A model generated the notes under the pieces. It was not told the DNA's origin. It saw nothing but the letters and a program-made list of their open reading frames with translations, and ran no database searches. 64,000 bases of DNA from Paenibacillus sp. FSL H7-0357 (GTDB lineage: Bacteria; Bacillota; Bacilli; Paenibacillales; Paenibacillaceae). Positions 5,774 through 50,949 of the stretch are shown here, one piece after another; the stretch's first letter is position 1, and the number at the start of each line of letters is the position of its first letter. The stretch is from assembly GCF_000758525.1 (NCBI RefSeq), contig NZ_CP009241.1:6324001-6388000 (forward strand), written 5' to 3'. The position numbers were made by a program, and so were the translations under genes.

Positions 5774-5988
5774 TATATAAGTTGAACTTTAGACTTACCA
5801 AGCCGGCATAGAACGCAACTGCGGTGAATATTTGGACTTCCGGCCGCTGTTGTCTTCGGATTTCTTGATTTTAACCGCTATTTAGCGGTAGAAATCCGAA
5901 GACAAAGGCGGACACTACCGTTCCTCCAGTTCCAAAATTCCCCTCCGCTGCTTTTGCCTCTAGGTAGTTCTTTAGTTCAACTTATATA
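5774..5988. repeat. R1 structured repeat, copy 1 (215 bp)
   Basis: Outer arms TATATAAGTTGAACT (5774-5788) and its complement ending at 5988 enclose a second stem around GGACTTCC / GGAACTGG, then the conserved block TTCCGGCCGCTGT, a long stem TTGTCTTCGGATTTC with its complement, and an inner hairpin ACCGCT-ATTT-AGCGGT. The conserved block AAAGGCGGACACT follows. Two further copies (43876-44032, 49140-49356) share the conserved blocks but have different, still self-complementary stems. This copy lies between the 3' ends of two genes and codes for nothing I can see. Confidence 0.85.
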
Positions 5989-6060
5989 GAAGCAATTGCT
6001 ATGACGCGCAGGTAATGGGCAATATCGCTGCAAGAGAGGGTTCAACCTCATTCCCGTACT

Positions 6061-13504: not shown

Positions 13505-13650
13505 GCCTTCTCATCTGCCAAAGACCGCAAACCGCGCGGTATTGTAGGAATTAGCACCATGACATTCATCTAAAACGCGGGTTGACGCGTATTACACAAA
13601 TCGGTTGCCGGGCTTCATCGGGCCTATCCCTCCGCCGCTCTCGATAAGAT
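13505..13650 (-). ncRNA. SAM-I (S-box) riboswitch controlling metNPQ
   Basis: The minus strand reads ATCTTATCGAGAG, then GGAGGGATAGGCCC, GATGAAGCCCGGCAACC, a variable arm, GGTGCTAATTCC and finally GCAGATGAGAAGGC, the S-box consensus in order. High SAM stabilises the aptamer, lets the downstream terminator form and shuts off methionine uptake. Confidence 0.96.
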
Positions 13651-43875: not shown

Positions 43876-44032
43876 GCGTTGATAAGCCGCCGTTCCGCGG
43901 AATTTCGAATTTCCGGCCGCTGTAGTTGTCCGATTTCTTCATCTTAACCGCCATGCGGTTGAAATCGGACAACAAAGGCGAACGCTGGCGCTCCTCCAAT
44001 TTCGAAATTCAGCTCCACGGCTCCATCAACGC
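43876..44032. repeat. R1 structured repeat, copy 3 (157 bp)
   Basis: Outer arms GCGTTGAT and ATCAACGC enclose GAATTTCGAA paired with TTCGAAATTC, then TTCCGGCCGCTG, stem TTGTCCGATTTC with GAAATCGGACAA, and inner ACCGC / GCGGT. The conserved AAAGGCGAACGCT block follows. It starts 42 bases upstream of the yutD start and would be in its 5' leader. The gap to 44194 also holds a hairpin of AAGGGCC and GGCCCTT at 44062-44099. Confidence 0.82.
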
Positions 44033-49139: not shown

Positions 49140-49356
49140 CTATATAGATTGAACTTATAATTCTTATATTTTGGGATTGGCCGTGACTCCAGAGAATGTT
49201 TGGACTTCCGGCCGCTGTTAGGTTTCGATTTCCTGAATTTAACCGCGAATCGCGGTAGAAATCCAAACCTAAAGGCGGACGCTGTCGCTCCTACAGTTCC
49301 AAGATTCCCCTCCACCACTTTTCCCTACATGTAATTCTCAAGTTCAATCTATATAG
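49140..49356. repeat. R1 structured repeat, copy 2 (217 bp)
   Basis: Outer arms TATATAGATTGAACTT and AAGTTCAATCTATATA, then GGACTTCCGGCCGCTG, a stem TTAGGTTTCGATTTC with its complement, inner ACCGCGA-TCGCGGT, and AAAGGCGGACGCT. The outer arm differs from copy 1 at two neighbouring positions on both sides, so pairing is kept. It lies 35 bases upstream of the hydrolase start and next to the IS element. Confidence 0.85.
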
Positions 49357-49533: not shown

Positions 49534-49866
49534 ATGGAGTTAGATTCAATAACCATTCAGTGTTTTCACTTCATTATCATCTTATTCTAGTCTATTCAGC
49601 CCAATTACAATATCAGGCTGCAAGAATGGAATCATGGCAAGGATCATGTTCACGTTCTTATGAAGGCTCATCCCAATAGCGAAATTCCCAAATTCCTCAA
49701 CGCTTATAAAAGTGCTTCCTCTCGACTGATCAAGAAAGAATACCCTATTATTCGTAAACAACTGTGGAAGGAATATTTCTGGTCGAGAAGCTATTGCCTT
49801 ATAACGACTGGTGGAGCGCCTATGGATGTCATCCGAAAGTATATTGAAACTCAAGGTGAGAAATGA
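49534..49866 (+). pseudogene. tnpA: IS200-type HUH transposase TnpA, frameshifted with internal deletion
   Basis: The start MELDS is followed by a one-base shift to NNHSVFSLHYHLIL, then the reading jumps directly to QPNYNIRLQEWNHGKDHVHVL. In intact relatives about 25 residues lie between, so an internal deletion of roughly 75-80 bases occurred. The HUH motif (HVH) and IRKYIETQ with the catalytic Tyr survive in the C-terminal part. No full-length product is possible. Confidence 0.85.
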
Positions 49867-49875
49867 GGTGAACCG

Positions 49876-50949
49876 GTGTTAATTGCTTATAAATATCGAA
49901 TCTATCCCAATCATGAACAACAACAGTATTTGGCTAGGGTGTTTGGTTGTGTTCGCTTCGTCTACAACAAAATGCTTGCGGATAAAATCGAATATTATAA
50001 ACAAACAGAAAAGATGCTTGTGAACACTCCTGCTCAATATAAGAAAGAATTCGTATGGCTAAAAGAAGTGGATAGCCTGGCACTAGCGAACGCTGGGCTG
50101 CACTTGGATAAAGCCTATAAAAATTTCTTTCGGGAAAAGAACATGGGATTTCCTAAGTTCAAAAGTAAAAAAACGAATAGGCATAGCTTCACAACGAACA
50201 ATCAGAATGGAACGATCTCTATCCGTGATGGACATATCAAGATTCCTAAGCTAAAGACTAAGATAAAAATCAAGTTGCACCGTCCATTCACTGGACTCAT
50301 CAAATCCTGCACCATCTCCAAGACTCCATCGGGTACATACTTTGCTTCCGTTTTGGTTGAAACAGAACTAACGGCTTTGCCGAAAGCTGAAAAGAAGATT
50401 GGCGTGGATCTAGGACTGAAAGAATTTGCGATTACTTCGGGTGGTGAGGTGTACGCCAATCCTAGACATCTTCGTAAATCTGAAAAACGATTAGCCAAGG
50501 TGCAAAAAGAGTTGTCGAGAAAGAAGAAAGGGAGCAAAAACCGATATAAAGCAAGGCTCCAGGTTGCCAAACTTCATGAAAAAATATCGAATCAGCGTAA
50601 AGATTTCTTGCACAAAACGTCAACCCAAATGATACGCGATAACCAAGTAATCGTTATGGAAGACTTGCGTGTAAAGAACTTGCTGCAGAATCACAAATTA
50701 GCTAAAGCCATATCAGAAGTATCTTGGAGCATGTTTCGTTCGATGCTCGAATATAAGGCTAACTGGTACGGCAGACAATTGATTATTGCACCAAAAAACT
50801 TTGCAAGTAGCCAATTATGTTCCTGCTGTGGCTACAAAAACGCAGAAGTGAAAAACCTTGCTGTACGTGAATGGACTTGTCCAGAATGTAGTGCACAACA
50901 CGACAGAGATGTAAACGCAGCTAAAAACCTACTGAAATTAGCAATATAA
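49876..50949 (+). CDS. tnpB: TnpB RNA-guided endonuclease, intact
   Basis: 357 aa, usual length. The RuvC active site is complete: Asp178 in GVDLG, Glu262 in VMEDL, and the last Asp (about 345) in [10 protein letters not shown] zinc finger CSCC (315-318) with CPEC (335-338) sits in the RuvC insertion. The N-terminal wedge/helical part begins YKYRIYP. TnpB cuts DNA guided by an RNA from the element's right end and maintains the IS. GTG start nine bases after the tnpA remnant. Unlike tnpA it shows no damage. Confidence 0.93.

Follow-up and report, generated by a model that had tools for sequence, protein, structure and literature searches.

The stretch of DNA analysed here (the window, 64,000 nucleotides from Paenibacillus sp. 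FSL H7-0357) contains three copies of a repeat whose stems differ in sequence from copy to copy while staying self-complementary, and it raises the question of whether such a sequence is made to fold as an RNA or as a single strand of mobile DNA. We prefer the DNA reading over the RNA reading, and we give about an even chance to the repeat being a non-autonomous mobile element, one that functions by folding as a single strand and measures about 220 bases where it is best defined.

All three copies described in the earlier note were recovered at the positions it gave, with the blocks it quoted and with self-complementary stems. Copy 1 (5774..5989, minus strand) has inverted ends of about TATATAAGTTGAACTT ... 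AGTTCAACTTATATAG and a structured core at 5814..5952 (minus strand, 157.6 bits with covariance model R1), and lies between genes that a coding-potential gene caller predicts to be convergent. Copy 3 (49140..49356, minus strand) spans 217 bp, with ends CTATATAGATTGAACTT ... AAGTTCAATCTATATAG and a core at 49182..49319 (minus strand, 148.6 bits with R1), so that, over its whole length, it is a unit like copy 1, about 217 bp with inverted ends. Copy 2 (43876..44032, minus strand) has its core (43888..44022, minus strand, 117.6 bits with R1) in common with the other two and is without the CTATATAG ends; its outer arms, GCGTTGAT and ATCAACGC, differ from theirs in sequence yet are complementary. 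Judging from the predicted frames, copy 2 probably sits in the leader of a YutD-like gene, whose frame enters the element and whose domain starts at residue 59, and for copy 3 the leader is probably that of an alpha/beta hydrolase gene with an inferred start. The parts of the fold are readily located in copy 3: a small junction hairpin GC-GACA-GC with a GNNA-type loop (49281..49288, minus strand; columns 34-41 of alignment A2), a long covarying stem with its first arm at 49218..49232 and its second at 49258..49272 (plus strand; A2 pairs 50-64 with 93-108, the second arm being placed from the sequence and the A2 pairs), and, likewise from the sequence and the A2 pairs, an inner hairpin ACCGCGA / TCGCGGT at 49242..49256 (plus strand). 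Compared with shuffled sequences, the plus strand yields fold z-scores of -10.0 (copy 1) and -5.1 (copy 2) as RNA and of -6.9 (copy 3) as DNA, and the minus strand yields -9.0 (copy 1) and -5.1 (copy 2) as RNA.

The description of a three-copy repeat holds for the copies themselves and understates the family, which occupies about 90 places in the genome, three of them in the window. An exact pattern finds 18 copies in the 7.69 Mb genome and, among 40 genomes, is positive in 13 including this one, all of them within the 25 that belong to the same genus. Covariance model R1, built from 28 copies with the three window copies among them, returns 100 rows in this genome, or 90 copies, a few of them partial, once 10 opposite-strand echoes are removed; this number may be a lower bound, since the best 150 of 2598 candidates were scored. 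Extending the covariance search to relatives, as the earlier note had proposed, reveals R1 matches in 62 of the 78 genomes sampled from the bacterial family, spread over 13 of its 19 genera. For the order, a broader model (R2, built from 108 sequences) has matches in 199 of the 246 genomes sampled and in 33 of the 46 genera. Rfam, whether at gathering or at permissive thresholds, has no match on the element: its only match in the window is a SAM riboswitch located elsewhere (13508-13650, minus strand, 69.3 bits), and a search of 16 loci at E up to 1 yields six weak matches, none of which covers the element core. Neither a set of just three copies nor a known Rfam family, the outcomes that the earlier note had set against its own reading, was thus encountered. 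Copy 3 has no match in plasmid and phage collections at blastn sensitivity, and no published description of such an element in this group was found in the portions of the open-licence literature available. The family is real and order-wide, and apparently unnamed as far as the Rfam and literature searches go.

Selection for single-strand structure, proposed in the earlier note from the differences among three copies, is upheld by covariation measured against shuffled and slid controls. In alignment A2, a sequence-only alignment of 28 sequences from which the tested pairs were themselves drawn, 94.3% of cells pair and 23 of 46 pairs have changed on both sides. Its 101 double-change cells compare with a mean of 30.5 in 500 shuffles, none of which reaches as high, and chance is therefore excluded; sliding the partners by 1 to 3 columns lowers pairing to 37-49%. 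Alignment A4, which comprises 108 sequences and leans towards the model because it was fitted to it, gives 92.6% pairing, 42 of 46 pairs doubly changed and 548 double-change cells against 121.2 after shuffling. One drawn pair, A4 columns 10 and 217, fails to pair in 67 of 106 sequences and probably should not count as one.

Read on the minus strand, the architecture consists of an outer stem enclosing a multi-branch junction with a small hairpin GC-GNNA-GC, a four-pair helix, a long stem and an inner hairpin. The unpaired blocks of the junction are near-invariant and its small hairpin retains both pair and loop type; the four-pair helix, CCGC/GCGG, has C-G as its outer pair in 54 sequences of A4 and U-A in 30. 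Variants within this genome carry an extra hairpin after the junction (class B), are without the long stem (class C) or have a wholly different outer stem (class D). The minus strand can thus form a branched fold in which stem letters turn over and pairing is preserved. It is also probably the functional strand, the complement of the one first described, because wobble cells of the G-U type outnumber those of the A-C type on it; on this evidence the strand chosen in the earlier note was probably the wrong one. The counts for the minus strand are GT 52 against AC 17 in A2, with 7 of the 17 AC cells in one doubtful pair. Among 43 A4 representatives below 85% identity there are 86 G-U-type against 45 A-C-type cells, the doubtful pair contributing 15 of the 45; helix 3 of A4, the outer-middle stem, has 11 cells of each type in these representatives.

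The suggestion of a mobile hairpin element moved in trans gains support from recurrent ends and from empty sites in related genomes, which were found for copy 3 and for the loci L051 and L047. In the subfamily that is best defined, a unit of 217 bp carries inverted ends CTATATAG, and its boundaries (query 704-920) recur within a few bases in many dispersed matches. A permissive pattern allowing up to 6 of 17 substitutions finds both inverted ends in 44 of the 64 copies of this genome so searched, the other 20 being without one or both; the end pattern has 155 matches, against 21 for a reversed control pattern. Copy 3 is absent at the orthologous gene in all 10 relatives read, from among 48 genomes with any query match, and the element is therefore mobile; at base level the empty site does not align, because the intergenic DNA is too diverged. 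The L051 copy, which lies between two genes and has a damaged left end in this genome, is absent in 13 of 13 loci read, where its flanks are adjacent or nearly so. At L047, 9 of 13 loci read are without the element in the stretch and the remaining four have a related element elsewhere in the same gap (three of class B, one of class A); it is absent as well in 6 of 6 further stretches. One diverged empty site, G018, reads TTGAA-TTA-CTTCG where the filled site reads TTGAA-CTA...TAG-CTTCG, a comparison that would be consistent with duplication of TA on insertion.

Several arrangements of copies were recorded alongside these results. In genome G063 the element occurs in tandem arrays, with a 226-bp unit repeated 4.8 times at L299 (389-1473) and three units of about 200 bp at L298. 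Nine close pairs of oppositely oriented copies, separated by less than about 600 bp, all run minus then plus (L100, L101, L103, L110, L125; L300-L303), and two wider pairs run plus then minus (about 1 kb at L110, 1.5 kb in G079). Four near-identical copies in G147 (L294-L297) lie within a larger repeated element beginning GAGGCCACTGAAAAAG, so the element can hitch-hike, and no element ends are taken from these copies.

Copies are oriented with respect to replication. In this genome 72 of 90 have the leading orientation with the terminus set at 4.0 Mb, and 68 of 90 with the terminus at the midpoint. Once close same-strand copies are merged (82 and 68 rows beforehand), G063 has 57 of 71 and G112 has 43 of 67; among the copies listed in G079 the figure is 29 of 37. 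The bias is weakest in G112 (p = 0.027), and in three genomes the assigned replichores agree with GC skew. Between flanking genes that oppose each other, 23 of 31 copies are leading, and gene direction therefore cannot explain the replication bias. The lagging-strand template is exposed as a single strand at the fork, and the orientation bias means that the functional strand tends to lie on it.

The hairpin loops bear on the nature of that strand. GNRA is the stable tetraloop of RNA. Across 117 distinct contexts caught by one pattern, which leaves out copies that do not fit it, the junction hairpin has 90 GNYA, 11 GNA, 5 GNAB, 5 GNRA and 6 other loops, and in class B the loop of the extra hairpin is GNA in 15 of 16. 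The available text of PMC4686876 calls DNA mini-hairpins with a GNA or GNNA loop and at least two G-C pairs extraordinarily stable, and that of PMC8373063 describes GNNA and GNAB tetraloops as stable in DNA and names GNRA as the RNA counterpart of stable DNA tetraloops. By this comparison the loop types favour single-stranded DNA over RNA, short of proof. Loops and replication orientation are each in keeping with an element that folds, as single-stranded DNA, on the lagging-strand template, while RNA stays a plausible, less favoured molecule.

In the mechanism that we put forward, the folded strand would be DNA of the lagging-strand template in its exposed, single-stranded state, an enzyme acting in trans would read the near-invariant junction and not the stem sequence, and insertion of the CTATATAG subfamily would duplicate TA, as the one diverged empty site suggests. 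A fuller version, which we advance more tentatively, envisages an order-wide class of mobile elements whose branched single-stranded DNA fold is the substrate of transposition, with a non-Y1 enzyme reading the junction and its GNA/GNNA mini-hairpins on the lagging-strand template and with stems free to change provided that they pair.

The strongest competitor to this reading takes the functional molecule to be an RNA (a structured leader, a processing RNA or a small RNA) whose copies owe their spread to a mobile carrier. A transcribed RNA would also be expected to show wobble asymmetry and replication bias, and neighbouring genes point in its direction: the downstream gene is co-directional in 52 of the 70 copies, out of 90, assessed with the coding-potential gene caller (the copy before the YutD-like gene being scored as opposite, as the gene frame had been extended over the element), and 33 of 39 copies between co-directional genes are sense. 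Yet orientation follows replication between opposed genes too, and where both flanking genes run against replication in this genome 3 of 4 copies are antisense, that is, with replication. In a set of 20 leading and 20 lagging loci taken from G063 and G112, and therefore rich in lagging copies, the raw count for this configuration is 6 sense to 2 antisense, and becomes about even when weighted by the lagging shares of 14/71 and 24/67; co-directional pairs in the same 40 loci comprise 6 sense and 6 antisense lagging copies, and 9 sense and 2 antisense leading ones. Replication matters for orientation, transcription may matter too, and the two causes are only partly separable. Loops also speak against RNA, with GNYA at 90 and GNRA at 5. 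Sites held by descent offer the RNA its best support. A genus (g42) of another family of the order has two to three matches per species in four species, which have in common two sites, before icd (isocitrate dehydrogenase) and before leuA (2-isopropylmalate synthase). The element at leuA is conserved at 0.94, against 0.85 upstream and 0.75 over the remainder of the leader. No other locus argues as well for a local function, and because of leuA the RNA explanation retains about a third of the probability. Elsewhere the element is no better conserved than its surroundings (0.72 against 0.71 upstream at icd) or less so (0.90 against 0.97 upstream at a fucosidase locus in three species of another genus). 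Paired changes between orthologues number up to 13 at icd and 7 at leuA in model-fitted alignments, counts that are inflated by register shifts; direct alignment by eye gives two clear paired changes in the outer stem at icd and one clear paired change at leuA. At the fucosidase locus single-sided breaks (5 to 9) outnumber paired changes (1 to 4), and the fold is therefore decaying there. With regard to the regulatory RNA that the earlier note had considered, a leader role stays in play through leuA, and a riboswitch of the metabolite type is not supported: 20 of 51 downstream genes were scanned, and these belong to mixed families with no common pathway, including several ABC transporter parts, two response regulators and two acetyltransferases.

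Three further explanations are less likely. An ordinary MITE, with a transposase that binds its ends as double-stranded DNA and an interior structure without a role, would account for the recurrent boundaries, the empty sites and the 44 of 64 copies in which the permissive pattern finds both ends. It might also account for two places (G000:C1:5542585-5542663 and 6482771-6482822) where the same inverted ends are closely paired and the core model is silent, possibly end-only derivatives or miniatures. We consider it unlikely, in that the interior and not the ends is conserved across genera, the outer arms in the printed folds being completely replaced yet complementary; the CTATATAG ends were not seen by eye in 26 copies printed from outside the genus, 20 of 64 copies here are without one or both ends, and no autonomous full-length element with the same ends was recognised by eye among the matches listed, of 155. 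Less likely again is covariation without selection, in which template switching at palindromes or conversion between copies rewrites one arm from the other. Whole stems do differ at once between copies, and at icd one species combines a remodelled long stem with an outer stem changed from GGC/GCC to GAT/ATC. Against such rewriting, however, stand the near-invariant junction blocks, the junction hairpin that keeps its pair and loop type, and the strand bias of wobble cells, where templated repair should yield perfect pairs. A REP/REPIN-type system served by a Y1 (RAYT) transposase would fit the high copy number, the intergenic palindromes, the strand and replication bias and the close inverted pairs, but is largely refuted and has very little probability left. 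Of 78 genomes of the bacterial family, 21 carry the Y1_Tnp domain (PF01797). Among the 16 that have at least 39 element matches, 10 gave no hit to it (G011, G079, G086, G088, G091, G097, G101, G108, G109 and G112), some of the assemblies being drafts; this absence argues against a REP/RAYT partnership, and we reject a Y1/RAYT partner as a general mechanism. The search for a mobilising enzyme covered the Y1 family only and found none. This genome has two PF01797 hits, both interrupted. Beside copy 3, the window holds an IS200/IS605-type element (49582-50949), in which the remnant of a Y1 transposase, itself interrupted, is accompanied by a TnpB-like frame (49876-50949).

We thus keep the folded single-stranded DNA element as the preferred reading. 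Whichever molecule is at work, an element carried by most of the genomes sampled from a large order, and often dozens of times over, has had no Rfam match or literature name, and its covariation provides a secondary structure of unusual confidence together with a test set for single-stranded DNA versus RNA function. It also serves as a warning that covariation need not signify an RNA gene. If the DNA reading is true, it points to a new replication-coupled mobilisation enzyme.

Among known systems, the element is similar to MITEs, to BCR repeats and to REPs; it failed the test for a REP system, and the features that define MITEs are present in part. Bacillus cereus, which hosts the repeats bcr1-bcr18, is a Firmicute, and the family is like these repeats in its Firmicute host, size range, dispersal and mobile features, while differing from them in being order-wide, in its branched junction and in stems that covary across genera. 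According to the available text of PMC6542083, the bcr repeats are dispersed, 100-400 bp long and endowed with mobile features, with dozens of copies of bcr1; the first BCR element does not occur beyond the B. cereus group, and movement of bcr repeats is tied to TTTAT motifs. In our family TTTAT is present in some AT-rich flanks and was not seen by eye as a duplicated motif, and the ends are CTATATAG. With REP/REPIN sequences and their RAYTs the family has in common palindromes, high copy number, intergenic location and a strand-specific fold; REPs measure 20-40 bp in the available text of PMC3733652, and the present element is several times larger, with a conserved junction and no consistent Y1 partner. 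The same text describes MITEs such as RUP, NEMIS, ERIC and Nezha as non-coding sequences of 70-300 bp with inverted ends, found beside genes (PMC3733652). The genus subfamily is like them in size (within 70-300 bp), precise inverted ends, lack of coding capacity and proximity to genes; the difference is that the interior of the element, and not its ends, is common across genera. Integron attC sites work as a folded single strand, and the likeness to them and to the ends of IS200/IS605 elements would be one of working, as a folded single strand on the lagging-strand template. For IS200/IS605 the lagging-strand link is stated in the available text of the HuH paper PMC6006769, whose main text makes no mention of Paenibacillus or Bacillus. 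The element described here differs from both in apparently being without an attached transposase or integrase and in its stems, which are fixed in sequence in those systems and free in this one.
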